Part shown: positions 31,120 to 49,784 of the stretch, piece by piece
How positions within the stretch are numbered: the stretch's first letter is position 1
Layout of the letters: every line of letters starts with the position of its first letter
From: Cenococcum geophilum 1.58
Taxonomy: Eukaryota; Ascomycota; Dothideomycetes; Gloniales; Gloniaceae
Length of the DNA stretch: 64,000 bases
NCBI GenBank assembly: GCA_001692895.1
Contig: KV748229.1
Location: forward strand, 867,112 to 931,111
Direction: 5' to 3'
Notes under the pieces: model-generated
Told to the model about the DNA's origin: nothing
Database searches by the model: none
What the model saw: only the letters and a program-made list of their open reading frames with translations
Program-made: the position numbers and the translations under genes

Positions 31120-33265
31120 CGAGTCATCATTTCTTTGTCAAAATTCCTTGCAATCTGGGCCACTGCCCCATCAGTGATCAGGACATCGCCCCCTCTTCGA
31201 TCAAGTAGAAGTGTCATTATTTCTTTGCCACCCCCCTCCCCATTCCCCGCCACTGCCTTAACCACCCCTTCAGTGATCGGGGCGTCGCCCCTCTTCGATT
31301 GAGTAGAAGTGTCATTATTTCTTTGCCACCCCCCTCCCCATTCTCTGCCGCTGCCTTAACCACCCCTTTAGCGATCGGGATGTCGCCCCCTCTTCGATCA
31401 AGTAGTAGAAGTGTCATCATTTCTTTGTCAAAATTCCTTGCAATCTGGGCCACTGCCCCGTCAGTGATCGGGGCGTCGCCCCCTCTTCGATTGAGTAGAA
31501 GTGTCATTATTTCTTTGCCACCCCCCTCCCCATTCCCTGCCGCTGCCTTAACCACCCTTTCAGTGATTAGGATGTCGCCCCCTCTTCGATCAAGTAGAAG
31601 TGTCATTATTTCTTTGCCCCACTCCCGATTCCCTGCAATCTGGGCCACTGCCCCATCAGTGATTAAGGCATCGCCCCCTCTTTGATTGAGTAGAAGTGTT
31701 ATTATTTCTTTGCCCCACTTCCCCCAATTCCCCGCTGCTGCCTTAACTACCCCTTCAGTGATCGGGACGTTGCCCCCTCTTCGATTAAGTAAAAGTGTCA
31801 TTATTTCTTCGCCACCCCACTGATTCCCCGCCGCTGCCTTAACCACCCCTTCAGTAATTGGGACGTCGCCCCCTCTTTGATCGAGTAGAAGTGTCATTAT
31901 TTCTTTGCCCCACACCTGGTTCCCCGCAATCTGGGCCACTGCCCCATCTGTGATCGGGGCGTCCCCCTCTCTTTGATTAAGTAGAAGTATCATTATTTCT
32001 TTGCCCCACCCCCCCCAATTCCCTGCCGCTGCCTTAACCACCCCTTCAGTGATCAGGACATCGCCCCCTTTTCGATCAAGTAGAAGTGTTATTATTTCTT
32101 TGCCATTCCACCCTCTCCCTGCCGCTACCTCTACCACCCCTTCAGTAATTGGGACGTCGCCCCCTCTTCGATTAAGTAGAAGTGTTATTATTTCTTTGCC
32201 CCACCCCCAATTCCCTGCTGCTGCCTTAACCACCCCTTCAGTGATTGGGACGTCGCCCCCTCTTCGATCAAGTAGAAGTGTCATTATTTCTTTGCCACAC
32301 CACCCTTGATTCCCCGCCGCTGCCTTAACCATCCCTTCAGTGATTAGGACATCGCCCCCTCTTCGATCAAGTAGAAGTGCCATTATTTCTTTGCCACCCC
32401 ACCCTCTCCCCGCCGCTACCTCAACCACCCCTTCAGTGATTGGGACATCGCCCCCTCTTTGATTAAGTAGAAGTGTCATTATTTCTTTGCCACCCCACCC
32501 CCAATTTCCCACCGCTGCCTTAACCACCCCTTCAGTAATCGGGACGTCGCTCCCTCTTCGATCAAGTAGAAGTGTTATTATTTCTTCGCCACCCCACCGA
32601 TTCCCCACCGCTGCCTTAACCACCCCTTCAGTAATCGGGACGTCGCCCCCTCTTCGATCAAGTAGAAGTGTTATTATTTCTTCGCCACCCCACCAATTCC
32701 CCACCGCTGCCTTAACCACCCCTTCAGTGATTGGGACGTCGCCCCCTCTTCGATTAAGTAGAAGTGTCATTATTTCTTTGCCACCCCACCCTCTCCCCGC
32801 CGCTACCTTAACCACCCCTTCAGTGATTGGGACGTCGCCCCCTCTTCGATCAAGTAGAAGTACCATTATTTCTTTACCACCCCACCCCCAATTCCTCACC
32901 GCTTCCTTAACCACCCCTTCAGTAATTAGGACGTCGCCCCCTCTTCGATCAAGTAGAAGTGTTATTATTTCTTCGCCACCCCACCGATTCCCCACTGCTG
33001 CCTTAACCACCCCTTCAGTAATTGGGACGTCGCCCCCTCTTCGATCAAGTAGAAGTGTCATTATTTCTTTGCCACCCCACCCTCTCCCTGCCGCTACCTC
33101 AACCACCTCTTTAGTAATTGGGACGTCGCCCCCTCTTCGATCAAGTAGAAGTGTTATTATTTCTTTACCCCACTCCCTATTCCCTGCTGCTGCCTTAATT
33201 ACCCCCTCAGTGATCGGGACATCGCCCCCTCTTCGATCGAGTAAAAGCGTCATTACTTCCTTAGA
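31120..33265 (-). repeat. coding tandem array, ~22 copies of a 93-102 bp unit
   Basis: Units share an almost invariant core (plus strand CGCCCCCTCTTCGAT followed by AAGTAGAAGTGT) and differ mainly in the short segment between the AAGN and KEIM motifs (WGWGG, REWG, GEGGG, RGWGG variants). Unit length is a multiple of three, so copy-number changes keep the frame. One unit has a duplicated Leu codon (AGTAGTAG at about 31400). High identity between copies points to recent unequal exchange or gene conversion. Confidence 0.85.
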
Positions 33266-35147
33266 TGATTGTGCAATCCTAACTACCTCTTTTTCTGTAA
33301 TCTGAGTGGCGTGCTCTTTTCGCTTAAGTAGATCCGTTATTACCTTTAGCTCCTCTATCCCCTTTAATTCCCTTTGATCCCTATAAGCTGACACTAGGTT
33401 GGCAAGTGTATGAAATGTGTCTAAGTGTTCCTCCCCTTGCACACATTTTCTTATCTGTATTACTTGCAAAAGCAATTCCTCTGCCTCCTTCCATTGCTGG
33501 CTTTTTTTGTATATTATCGCGAGTTTATCTATAAGTTCCAGTGTGCGTAGATGCTCTTTTCCAAATGCCCTTTTATAGCCTTCTATTGCTTCTTGAAGCC
33601 TCTTTTTAGCCTCTTTATACTCTTCCAAGTCCTCTAATATTAGCGCGACATTATACAGTCTTGTCGCTTTTCTCATGTAATCTTCCAACTCTTTTGGACA
33701 GCGCTCCGGGACTTGTCCATTTGCTTCTATTAAGCTTTCATATTCTTCTTGATCTTGTAACCTGTCTGAGGCCTTTTCCCAGTTCCAGACAAGCAGAAAG
33801 TCACGCAAGAAGCCTGGCCATCTATCACTGTCACTCTCCGTTCCTATGGTCTCCGAAAAAGTAGCTGCTATCATAGTAATGGCAAAATGATCTTTATATG
33901 GTCGGATGATTGTAGGTTTTGAAGCTCCTTGTAAAAGGCAGACGATGTCACCCTTCTGGACGGATTTTGCCGAAGCCTGGAGGTTCCAGTGAGCCTTACA
34001 TTCTTTGGTGTGTCCTAGGTGTTGCGATATATTCTTAAAGTTAATATTCACGTTCTGTTTGCCATCCTGATCTCTCTCTGCCGAGGACACCTGGCCAAGA
34101 ACATACCCTCTGCTATTAATTATTGCCATCTCCTTATCGTTCCAAGTCTCGACAGATACCTGCTTGTTAAGAAGGAACTTGACAAGTCGCTGCAAGAGTT
34201 CCTTCCATGAAACCCGATAGTCAGGAGATAAGCCAGCTGCGCTAAGATCATCTGAGCTCATGCCGAGCAATGCATATATCTTGTCGTGGCGGTTGGTAGC
34301 CTCGTGGGTATGGTACATATCTATCAGCTCGCCTAGAGGGCATATGTCTAAGGAAACCCTCCCCGGCCTACTCGATACGTATTTAGGCCGGAATATTGCT
34401 TCCCTTATAAGGTAGGTTACTGAACGGATTAGGCCCTGCAAGTCTGAGCGAGTTCCACGGAAACCTTTTAATAACTCTAAACCTGAGCAGAATGCGTATC
34501 CATCAATCTCCGTGGGACCACACGAGATCATGATATACCGAGCTGCGGCCACTTCTTGCAGTACCTGTATGGACCTTTTAGTAATTCCTACGGATGTTGT
34601 CGAACGTCTGCTGCCTTACCCAGATGCGCCGAAACCACGGTCGTTGAAGCAGTGGGAGAATTGCTTGCTGGATCATTTCTTTATTTGAAGTATTCGTGGG
34701 CTTGCCTGCAGCGCGTATTGCTTCAAGCGCTATATCGCTATCGTCTGCCCTCTCTCCAAGCCAAACAATTACACGGCTTGCTTTACCATAGATTTTCGCC
34801 ATAGACTGAATCTGGTGTTCTTTCTCTTGTTTATCTTCTTGGTTGATGCAAACAGCATCTACCCAAATGATTCGTGGAATATCGCGATCTCGAAGACGTA
34901 ATAACGCGGCGTGAAGGTTTAGCGTAACGGCCAAGTATTGATTGTCTATAAAAATAGACTGACGCTTGTCTGAACCGCCCCATACGTAAGATAATGCCTC
35001 GTACGGATAAGTCGCTTTATCCGATTCTCGTAGGGCGTGCTCAAAGAGTTCGCATCGTATATTCGCCGTGTTATTTTCGTTTGGCATTAGGCGAAGCAAG
35101 CGAATGTTAGACATTTGTGAAAGCGGAGAATAACAGTACTGAGACAT
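31217..35147 (-). CDS. HET-domain protein with TPRs and ~21 near-identical ankyrin-like repeats
   Basis: Two exons, 35147-34620 and 34564-31217, join in phase across a 55-bp intron (RRIW | VLQEVAAARY) to 1292 codons (1291 aa). The HET domain occupies about residues 15-200: YEALSYVWGG, IIWVDAVCINQEDKQEKEHQ and KIYGKASRVIVWLGE. A conserved HET-associated region follows (NRHDKIYALLGM). At about 480-600 are TPR-like helices of the kinesin-light-chain type (YKEAKKRLQEAIEGYKRAFG, WKEAEELLLQVIQIRKC). The C-terminal ~650 residues are a tandem array of about 31-34 residues per unit, consensus KEIMTLLLDRRGGDVPITEG plus VVKAAAGN. HET proteins trigger cell death on contact with non-self hyphae. A missing C near 31287 shifts the last units, so the protein ends out of frame, and two further units lie beyond. 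Confidence 0.88.
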
Positions 35148-44338: not shown

Positions 44339-47300
44339 ATGGAGAGATACAAGGTCACTGTGACCATTGATAGAAAAGAAACTCGTCTTCTCATCCCGAT
44401 GCTACCAGCCTCACCAGTCTCGTCCTTAGCCACTCAAGTCAAGTTGCGTATCGGCCGCCTTGGTATCGAGACAAATTCAACAGGATTCACTCTCCACCTT
44501 GAGCAAGCTGACGGTCCGATCCTTGATGCTGACGATTTGCTATCTGATGTACTTCCAAATCCGAAGAATGAGAGGCTCTATGCTACTCCCTCTCACTTCG
44601 AGCTTGGTCCTAACCACCCTCATAGTCATCAGGTCAGTCCACTTTAGAACCAATGACATATTCATGCAAAGACGGATGGGCCAAATGGTTCTTACTCCGT
44701 TTTTAAACCCTTATTAGAACAAGGCTGACACATTTGCAAATACAGACGTCACATGACACCAGTTCCCGAACTTCAGGAGGGGCAGAGCCAATTGGAAGTT
44801 ATGAAGAGCTCAAAGTACGGGTCATTACTCCCACTTTGGCTCGAGCTGAGAAAGACTTCCGCTCAATCCCACTGCTTCCCGGCCATACCATCACCACAAA
44901 TACTACGCTTCGGGAACTCAAGACTAATATCGCGAAATATCTTGGCGTATCCACGGCTAACGATCTCCATGAATATGATGATTTGGAATGCAACTGTTCT
45001 TTCGCACGACATATCGACGAGCGTGGAGGTTTGAATCAACCAGATGTAGAGACTTTGCAAGCAATGACCAGCCTCATCGTGGTTCACGGCAAGAACAAGG
45101 TCACCTGTCTTCAGACACCAAATAACTCCAAAGCATTATTGCTAGACCAGGTTCGCATCCAGCTCCCACGTCAGACCTTCGGAAAGAAAACTCTAGTTAT
45201 TGGTGGCCTCGAGGCTCCAGATAGCATGCAAGTACCGTTCCTTTGTTGAGTCAGTCTATTGTTAATTCTCCACCACATAGGTATTTGAAACTCCCTGTTA
45301 TCTCGATATGTTCTCCAAAGCGCCATGGTGAACACAGCCGATCAAGTCTCCCAGAAATAGGGACCTCGTCTCCATATGTGCCAAATCCTCGAAATATTAC
45401 TTTCCTAGACCTCCACACGGCGGAAGCGCCGATTGAACTGTCTCCGGCTAACATGGATCTTACAATGGATCAACTGTGTCTTAAAGATTGCACTATTAAC
45501 GGCGTGCTTAATATCTATACTGTCGAGCGGAAGGCTTTTCAAGATAGTGCAGAGGAATCTTCTGGCAAGGATGGCATTTTCGGGGACAGTGCTGCTTGGG
45601 TACGTGCATTTCGTCCATTTAGGGGACATCTTGCTACCCATTCTAACATAATCTACGTTCTATACAGCAAGATTTATGCTCATCAGCTAATCTGTTTTCC
45701 GTAGGAGCACCCGGTTTCTCAGTCAGAACGTGGTCGAGCTATGATGCTGTCTTCTCTTCGTGTCTTTGCCGAGCTCGTTGGTGCTAAAAACATGGAAATT
45801 CCTTCGCAAGACGCCATCTTGCATATTTTCAATTTGCTTACGCGATTCCCTCCAGCTGTTAGAACAGTCCACATTCTGATGAGCGGCAAGTCACCTCGGT
45901 CATGTGAGCGCGCAGCCCTAACTCAAGCTCTCTATGAAGTTCTTAAAGATGTGGTACCGCGACCTCTTATCAAATCTAACAATGGTCGAATCTTTGAGGG
46001 AGCTCGTCTTTTGTTCGGCCTTGTTATGGAGAAAGCCAAGCATTTAAAGATTTCTGCTAGGGACCAGGATAGTTCGCCTTACATGAGCTCCATGAAAGTT
46101 CTTGATCTTCGAAACACATTTACGATGGAGCCCATCGCGAGACCTATTCAGACAGCTGATGGCTTGGTTGAAGAAGGATTCTACGAAGCGCTCCGAGATG
46201 GCGGGGTTTTGAACTGGACTGATGGTATGAAGTTACCTCCGCTGCTGGCTATAGATGCAAAGACAAAAAGAACGGTTCTATTGTGTGGAGGTGTAATCTC
46301 ACAAGTCACAATATTTGACATGGACTCATTAAATGCCATGACTCGATATGCCGATGGTGGGGACGTAGATCGAGTTATTGTTTCGAAAGAACTCGCAGAT
46401 ATTCAGCACCTTGCAGCCCTATGTAGCCGAAATAAGCTAGGGGTTCTACCACCGTCGACTCTCCCATCCGCAGAACATCCTGCATTAACCTTGGATCGCG
46501 AAGGCCTCCTTGCTGTCTACGTTGGAAGGCCTGCCTGTGCTACTCCCGGAAAAGATATCGCTATCTTTCGGCCAACTAGGGGCGGAGAAGAGCATGTTGA
46601 TGTTTCCATCATAACTCAGCTTTTAATACCGATTCTTGAGAAACGAAATGCAGACGGAACGGCAATATTCGACGCCTTTGGGGATCAGAATCGACAGCTT
46701 AAGGATCCCGACGAAATTATTATGCTATGTGTTGACTGTAGTGGCAGCATGATGGAACCGAGTGACTTCCTCGAAATTTCAGGTGGAGACAGTCCAACCA
46801 GCTCTGATATAGATGGGTTTCTAATCGAGAGCGAGGATGAGGATTCGATGAGTGTGGATGACGGTGAAAACGCTATCGGTTTGATGACGCTTGACGAATT
46901 GAAAGGTGAGATTCCAATTAGTTCTAGCATGGGGGCGGTTCAACGTTCCACGTTGGCGACTATTATATCACAACAAAAGCTGATAACGAATAGCCTGGCT
47001 TGGGGAGTCCGACTCATTTTCCGACATGCTGTTAATCGTTAGGAGTGGGGCGACTACCTCAATTCGTCGCAGAAATGCTCAGAAGGTTCTCCAGATCATG
47101 AGTGGACTTACGTCTCAAGAATTAAAAGGACTAACTGCACAGTTGGGGAAACTAAAGATCACCTCCACAAGGCACCAGTACCGTAGTCAAGCTGAGTCTT
47201 TGGAGAGTAGAATTGCAAAGCTCAAGGATCTAAATGCGCACCTAAATCGACAAAGGGACCTGGAAGCGCTTTGTGATTTTTTAGTCTACCGCGCTGAAAA

Positions 47301-49784
47301 TTCCGAGATTCTCGATGAGCCACTCACTTGGAGAATAGGGGATGCAGTACCACGAGTGCCGAAGGCAGTACCAGATACAACATCCAGCGCTCTGGCTCGA
47401 GTAAAATATTCCATCCCACCTGAATATCTCTGCCCAATCTCGCAAGAGCTTCTTGAAGACCCTGTTATTTCTTGCGATGAGTTCACTTTTGAACGTAAGA
47501 ATATCGAACGATGGTTTCAAATGCGTCAATCATCGCCACTTACGGGACTGGCACTGGAAAATACAGACTTACGGTACAACGGAAGAATTGCCAATGCCGT
47601 CAAGACTTGGGTTGAGGCAACTGATATTCTTGACGCAGCTAAATCTGCTGCGTATCCGGATACGTCTTTACTAGAAAACGCCCAAGCATCTAATGATGCA
47701 GAGGTTTACAAAGTAGAATTCCTAGGCCCCTTGGGGTCTTTCAGCACACTCATCGTCCCATCCCTTACTCTTGAGGACCTCTACCTGGTAGCTTTCAGGG
47801 GGATGAAAGGACGACATGTCAAGTTTGAACTACACAGCAAGAACACGTTTCTGGAGCCATCCGAAGACCTGTCAATCGCATCGACTAACGTTCGCAATGA
47901 ATCCGTTGTACATATAACTGTTCAAGATAGCCCATCAGCCGCTAATTCCGCCAGTGCGGGCGCTGGTGCTGGCTCAAACCGTGAGTTCGAAGAATTGTGC
48001 CTTGTGAAAATTTACCATGGTTATAGCAACGTCGTAACTTCGTATTGGGTCCCTATAACGACGACAAAAACATTGGCCTCTGTCATTTTCCGATACTGGA
48101 CGGAGATGTTCAAACGCGGCTCTCCAATACCCCAGGAATTTGTCTTATGGACAAATTTAGTTGACGAAGGAGATTCAAGGTTCGTTGGCCAAACGCAAGA
48201 TCACTGGGAGCCTCTTTCAAAGTTTTTCAACCCCTGGAACGCTACCGGGAAGCTACGTGAGGAGTTGGTTTATGATAAGAAGAACCGCACCGCAAACGAT
48301 GACTCTGACGACGAAGAGATGGACGAAGACGTTGATCAAGCTCAGCCGCTAGTTCTAAAGATCGATTTGGGCTATGAACCATCTAAGCCTAATACTAAGA
48401 CACTCTCAAGGCTGGATGTTTTGAAGCAAATGTTCGATGCATTTGTCAATAGGCTTCTGGCGTACAATTTTCAGACCCATATGGGATTGATCACATTTCA
48501 CTCTACTACGAAAGTGTCTCAGAGTATAACTCACGCTGTCGAGAATTTTCGGCATAAGCTCAATGATATGACGGCTTCAGGGGACACCTCTCTATGGGAT
48601 GCACTAGCACTCGCCAATGATCAGTTGAACCAATACGCTTCGAAGTTCCCCTCCGCTAAGAAGCGAATTATCTGTCTTTCAGACGGCATGNACACGAACT
48701 CGGATAAGCGTGCGCATGAAATATCTTATAGCCTTTTGCAAAGCAAGGTTGTTGTAGATTCGTTCTGTTTAGGAGATGTAGATAATGAGGATCTCCGAAC
48801 AGTCGCCTACTTAAGCGGTGGATATAAGTTTCAACCAGAGTCCCTTGAACAGGCAATGGCAATTTGTGAGATGGAGCCAGTCCTCAGTCAGTTGGAACGC
48901 CCTGACATCGTTCTACCACGTGCATCCCAGGTTCACACATATGATACGCAGTTGAGGTTCATTTGGGCCAGAGAGAAAGCAATTCCAGAGACTGTCACTC
49001 GCGATGAATTCCCCGAGCGCAAGACGCATCCGAACTTCGATGATCGTTTCGTTGAGCTTACTACTATTGTGAAGTCGAACAGTTCCAGCACCGGTAGATC
49101 TTGGACTGGCTTGAGTTCGGACCGCTCGAATGCGAACCTGAGGACGAGTAGAATATTGACCGAGATCCGCAATATCGTTGCCAATCCCCACCCCCACTAT
49201 GACATCTACGTTTCAGAGTCGAATATGGCGTTTTGGAAGGTTGTGATGCAGGGTGTAAGTATCAAAGAGCCGCACTTTGTACATACCTATTGGTCCTAAC
49301 TGTCTCATAGCCGCCAGAGAGTGCTTATGCTGATGGAGTGTTCGTACTCTACCTTGACATGGAAGAAAATTACCCTGCTTTCCCGCCAAAGGGCCGATTC
49401 AGCACTCCGATTTACCATCCGAATATCAATCGTCATGGCAGGATCTGCCATAGCATCCTGGATCGTATGTATCAGTCTCGCTTTATGACACTATTTGACA
49501 TGTGCTGATTCTGGAAACATAGGTAACTGGACTTCTGACACCACAAACCTCCAGGTTATCAATACGATCTACTCACTCCTTCTTGTCCCCGAATTTAGTG
49601 ACCCAATGTGAGTATTTTCTTCCTTGCTGGCGAATATTTTTCGCTGACATCTGATAGCAACGCTGTGGTTACCCTTGACTACCATTGGGACGAGGTTCAA
49701 TTTAAAGACGAAGTCAAAGAACATATCATAAAGCACGCTACGACTACAAGGGCAGAATGGAGGGCGGTGCTTCTCGAAGAATGA
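44339..49784 (+). CDS. giant E2-E3 hybrid: ubiquitin-like folds, split VWA, U-box and C-terminal UBC domain
   Basis: Inferred exons: 44339-44632, 44746-45227, 45281-45599, 45705-49254, 49311-49464, 49523-49607 and 49658-49784, about 1,670 aa. In order: a beta-grasp ubiquitin-like fold (residues ~3-80, YKVTVTIDRKETRLLIPM); a second (~118-220); a mixed region; the VWA MIDAS start (IIMLCVDCSGSM, D709, S711, S713); an acidic segment and coiled coil; a U-box (~933-1005, IPPEYLCPISQELLEDPVIS); another ubiquitin-like fold (~1031-1108); the rest of the VWA (FDAFVNRLL, GDTSLWDALALA, RIICLSDGM); and an E2 domain (~1510-1670). The E2 keeps YHPNINRHGRICHSIL, so the HPN motif and Cys1594 are present. Oddities: the second intron uses GC-AG; the frame moves by +1 between 46985 and 47042; base 48691 is N. 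Substrate unknown. Confidence 0.82.

Follow-up and report, generated by a model that had tools for sequence, protein, structure and literature searches.

A predicted Cenococcum geophilum protein combining VWA, U-box and E2 domains in one chain

This study concerns a predicted gene in a 64,000-nucleotide stretch of the Cenococcum geophilum 1.58 genome (contig KV748229.1, positions 867,112 to 931,111; hereafter the window). Judged from its sequence, the gene is intact-looking, and its product combines known domains in an unusual way: an E2 (UBC) domain, a U-box and a VWA domain, all of which score above their Pfam cut-offs in a single reading frame. This bears out a first-pass annotation of the window, in which the three domains had been placed in one chain. 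Two features had been missed there, namely the probable splitting of the VWA domain by a module that carries the U-box, and the presence of two U-box-free paralogues in the same genome. Window coordinates of all features are collected in Table 1.

Comparison of the protein with the hidden Markov models of UBC and U-box, which had been suggested at first pass, returned both domains. Pfam UQ_con matched residues 1485–1621 of the full protein (E = 5e-32, 110.9 bits, cut-off 27), covering profile positions 1–139 of 140, and the best PDB alignments of this region were to Ubc13 (6.6e-24) and UBE2D1 (1.8e-22). The motif YHPNINRHGRICHSIL noticed earlier is present; HPNINRHGRIC contains the HPN and the cysteine at the catalytic position, which is Cys1565 in the final model and not Cys1594 as first numbered. 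The U-box matched at residues 906–974 (E = 3.6e-13, 49.9 bits, cut-off 21.4; profile positions 1–70 of 73) and was aligned in the PDB to "U-box domain-containing protein 12" (6.7e-9). Its CPI and later proline line up with the U-boxes of solved structures, and the F-x-R-x-x-I-x-x-W pattern described with it is found as FERKNIERW. For the VWA domain, VWA_2 matched residues 1237–1330 (E = 6.5e-9, 36.8 bits, cut-off 27), starting only at position 19 of the profile.

A search of the genome (177.19 Mb, 162 contigs) with the large exon of the gene revealed two further loci, on contigs 83 and 30, and the VWA-E2 family therefore has at least three members there. The paralogue models comprise 1228 residues (contig 83) and 1035 residues (contig 30), and the two share 36% identity with one another over 921 residues of the former. 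Both contain VWA and E2 domains above the Pfam cut-off, and in each of them one open frame takes in the VWA plus the first half of the E2; in neither was a U-box listed by Pfam at E-values up to 1. The contig 83 paralogue additionally has a long Ser/Pro-rich tail past its E2. A profile built from the two paralogues gave five collinear matches to the window protein, at residues 15–102 (13.2 bits), 325–472 (5.5 bits), 618–717 (21.3 bits), 1233–1482 (112.4 bits) and 1482–1635 (151.9 bits), compared with 2.3 bits for the best of 200 shuffled sequences. HPN and the catalytic-position cysteine are retained in all three family members, as is the DxSxS-T-D metal motif of the VWA. In the window protein the parts of this motif are far apart: D709, S711 and S713 precede the U-box module, and T1297 and D1329 follow it.

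The collinear break between the third and fourth segments lies directly past the DxSxSM motif of VWA strand 1. Here the paralogue profile passes from position 664 to 694 while the window protein passes from residue 717 to 1233, such that 515 residues, the U-box among them, stand against 29 profile positions in the paralogues. Joining the two halves across this break raised the Pfam VWA_2 score to 54.7 bits and extended the match to profile positions 1–106 of 107. With the residues that actually precede 1232, the score was 36.4 bits and the match began at position 18; six further pieces of 19 residues, taken from elsewhere in the protein, gave 37.0–40.4 bits. These six controls were not random, five being among the best scorers of the paralogue-profile test described below and one overlapping its top scorer. 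A whole VWA domain is reached by the profile only once halves 515 residues apart are joined. When the joined domain was compared with the PDB, one match fell under 0.01, the VWA of proteasome Rpn10 (0.0068), which is too weak to use.

Several observations weigh against this reading of the protein. The same joining test was non-discriminating when made with the two-paralogue profile, which gave 107.0 bits for the joined halves, 102.2 bits for the rest of the domain alone and up to 109.1 bits for other 19-residue pieces. When the three proteins were aligned with MAFFT, strand 1 of the paralogues came to lie opposite VLKIDLGYEP, a stretch immediately ahead of residue 1232, instead of opposite DCSGSM. 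The 5.5-bit and 13.2-bit segments of the paralogue profile are weak, and the U-box insert is known from a single genome and from one of its three family members. The protein could also be read as having a second VWA domain past DCSGSM, or as having VLKIDLGYEP for a degenerate strand 1, which the MAFFT alignment favours. One split domain is preferred to both, because VLKIDLGYEP adds nothing to the Pfam score (36.4 against 54.7 bits) and because the third segment of the paralogue profile ends on DCSGSM. The Pfam joining result and the collinear break are taken as the stronger evidence, and the protein is best described as one VWA domain probably divided by a U-box module. The term "insert" is used descriptively, as a gain in this gene and a loss in the paralogues would both be compatible with the one genome.

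The E2 loops belong with these opposing points. Compared with Ubc13, the window E2 has YPA in place of YPM and WTSD in place of WSPA, positions at which RING and U-box domains are usually contacted. A proline two places past the loop tryptophan occurs in 10 of 12 other E2 genes of the genome and in none of the three VWA-E2 family members. These counts come from the 15 readable loops, which were obtained from part of the 38 E2 match rows with a profile made from the family's three proteins plus one further protein (HeLo-E2, below); five of the loops lack the proline, three from the VWA-E2 family and two from elsewhere. Such E3-docking residues are usual for E2 domains and not defining, and since two other E2s of the genome also lack the proline, membership of the fold stands. 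The replacement of the docking residues makes transfer within the chain by the standard contact doubtful. Judging by these loops and the retained cysteine, the fused E2 appears capable of carrying a modifier without being suited to the standard contact with a U-box.

HeLo-E2 is a single 599-residue frame on contig 25 (L043:2415–4214, minus strand) with a HeLo (prion-inhibition and propagation) match of 4.3e-43 and a C-terminal E2 match of 4.4e-38. It keeps HPN, the cysteine and the WSPA loop. HeLo gave 18 match rows in the genome, and E2 fusion was examined for this frame alone.

The gene model was read from splice sites in the genomic sequence, from which all exon joins were deduced, and is a prediction. 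Its 1640-residue reading runs without an internal stop across eight exons and seven introns, six of them GT-AG and one GC-AG (donor GCAAGT). This GC-AG intron of the VWA/E2 gene lies at 45228–45280. The 88-nucleotide intron 46906–46993, with the donor GTGAGA, a branch-like CTGAT and the acceptor TAG, accounts for the apparent frame change near 47042. When candidate introns with matching phase and no resulting stop were enumerated and scored with hand-chosen weights, this intron ranked top with a score of 3.9 against 0.5 for the next. It superseded the weak intron 47031–47082 (donor GTTAAT). The exon 2 and exon 3 boundaries of the first model, as well as a donor at 49469, were dropped on account of the stops they produced. 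Paralogue-profile and Pfam searches were repeated on the final 1640-residue model. The unbroken exon 46994–49254 encodes the U-box and what remains of the VWA. Judged by the match of the whole protein, it also takes in the first 35 E2 residues, which by themselves gave no Pfam listing at 0.01. A single N, at 48691, occurs among the bases of the window.

Table 1. Positions of the gene, its exons and its predicted domains within the window
Feature	Window position	Strand	Residues	Remarks
Whole gene	44339–49784	+	1640 residues	8 exons, stop TGA; model read from splice sites
Exons	44339–44632, 44746–45227, 45281–45599, 45705–46905, 46994–49254, 49311–49464, 49523–49607, 49658–49784	+
N-terminal beta-grasp/Par3-N-terminus-like domain	44351–44557	+	5–73	weak; common to both paralogues
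Segment common to paralogues	45477–46025	+	325–472	paralogue profile, 5.5 bits only
Segment common to paralogues	46461–46760	+	618–717	paralogue profile; ends in VWA strand 1
VWA strand 1 with metal motif DCSGSM	46734–46751	+	709–714
Insert	46761–48393	+	718–1232 (515)	between VWA strand 1 and helix 1; includes intron 46906–46993
U-box domain	47413–47619	+	906–974	Pfam and PDB match
Two beta-grasp candidate segments of the insert	47707–48282	+		tested as 47707–47931 and 47980–48282; no match
Rest of VWA	48394–48837	+	1233–1380	metal-motif Thr1297 at 48586–48588, Asp1329 at 48682–48684
E2 (UBC) domain	49150–49724	+	1485–1621	four exons; Pfam UQ_con; HPN at 1555–1557
Cys1565 codon	49446–49448	+	1565

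At least three beta-grasp segments had also been proposed for the protein at first pass. One of them, at the N-terminus, holds weakly. Par3_HAL_N_term scored 26.1 bits with the N-terminus alone (cut-off 21) and 20.2 bits, under the cut-off, in the full protein. A profile made from the N-termini of all three family members matched Par3 N-terminal domains in the PDB (2.3e-4 to 1.1e-3) and, more weakly, ISG15 and Tonsoku. The two candidates in the insert matched no Pfam family, reached a best PDB E-value of 0.82 and showed no match to the N-terminal domain, which leaves a count of three unproven.

The domain anatomy is supported by the sequence; charging, binding and transfer are inferred from it, and the self-contained ubiquitination machine envisaged at first pass is a hypothesis. 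We tentatively place first the possibility that the protein is a multidomain E2 of a small VWA-E2 family, which would ubiquitinate what its VWA domain holds while the U-box aids the fused E2 through a non-standard contact or recruits a second E2. The C-terminal UBC domain would take ubiquitin, or a relative of it, from an E1 onto Cys1565, and the VWA, with its complete metal motif, may bind a partner or substrate. The U-box would hang from the loop between strand 1 and helix 1, which in VWA folds adjoins the metal-binding face, and a protein bound by the VWA would therefore be held near the U-box. Self-assembly may be mediated by the N-terminal Par3-like domain. If E2 and U-box cooperate, one chain would do the work of two enzymes, with the E2 engaged without the standard docking residues. 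A U-box placed in a VWA's ligand loop would, in addition, illustrate the grafting of a ligase beside a binding site, and family members with and without the insert offer a natural comparison.

Ranked second is the serious possibility that the U-box works solely in trans. It would then recruit an ordinary cellular E2, and the fused E2 would act without an E3, as UBE2O does, or only on its own protein. The U-box keeps its CPI and later proline, whereas the fused E2 lacks the docking proline and the hydrophobic residue, and the paralogues retain an E2 without any U-box; all of this fits such a division of labour. The keeping of U-box and E2 in one chain suggests joint use instead, and nothing direct bears against action in trans. 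The first place is kept by an E2 targeted through its VWA, with a U-box that is unusual or recruits a second E2.

It is unlikely that the protein is a product of domain shuffling without a function in ubiquitin transfer, either a scaffold or a decaying copy. The weak N-terminal similarity to the paralogues and the altered E2 loops would agree with such an origin. No relative was found in viral, phage and prokaryotic contig collections, which by their description hold no fungal genomes; this would also agree, except that a fungal relative is not expected there. A 1640-residue open frame with consistent splice sites, together with the retention of HPN, cysteine and metal motif in all three family members, speaks against this reading.

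Still less probable is a single-chain charge-and-transfer device for ubiquitin in which a protein captured at the metal face of the VWA would sit beside the built-in U-box and terminal E2. The whole would then be one of several E2-ended effectors of this genome, HeLo-E2 with its cell-death domain being another, and would serve in fungal non-self recognition or programmed death. An erroneous joining of a U-box/VWA gene to an E2 gene is very improbable: three introns fall in the E2 part and the joins were read from genomic DNA alone, but exon 46994–49254 reaches from ahead of the U-box into the E2, and in both paralogues the VWA shares its open frame with the first half of the E2.

Elsewhere in the window, a frame of 1132 residues at 31166–34615 (minus strand) contains TPR_12 and 19 DUF7104 stretches. 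Beneath it lies a tandem array of DNA (31166–33259) with about 21.6 copies of a 96-base unit. In this the frame looks like the repeat-bearing end of NLR-like proteins of fungi.

Like the window protein, UBE2O and BIRC6/BRUCE are very large and carry a UBC domain near the C-terminus; to our knowledge, neither has a U-box or a VWA domain. The BRUCE-like family is named as another multidomain E2 family (PMC2964712), and the same paper describes fungal clade 6A PARPs that end in a C-terminal UBC domain. These are likewise fungal and multidomain, with a terminal UBC that has the catalytic cysteine, but a PARP catalytic domain takes the place of VWA and U-box. No description of E2, U-box and VWA in one protein was found among the titles, abstract openings and excerpts examined from open-licence PMC articles, the excerpts of PMC11354881, PMC4327156, PMC9815663 and PMC12881547 making no mention of the combination; a domain database may list the architecture. 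The protein had been called undescribed at first pass, which holds for the triple combination within these excerpts and does not hold for VWA with U-box. The latter pair occurs in one chain in Mb_UBOXa of the choanoflagellate Monosiga, in Naegleria, Trimastix and other protozoans, and is called ancient (PMC3087547), and the U-box proteins of Chlamydomonas include VWA among their extra domains (PMC4378952). The likeness of the Mb_UBOXa-type proteins to the window protein was judged by domain names, and the excerpt of PMC3087547 mentions no E2 in them. Bacterial vWA-MoxR systems include genes for Ubl conjugation with a Ubl-E2 fusion (PMC7159879). They differ from the window protein in having VWA and E2 in separate genes and, in the excerpt, a RING-type E3 in place of a U-box, but they too bring VWA and E2 parts together in one functional setting.

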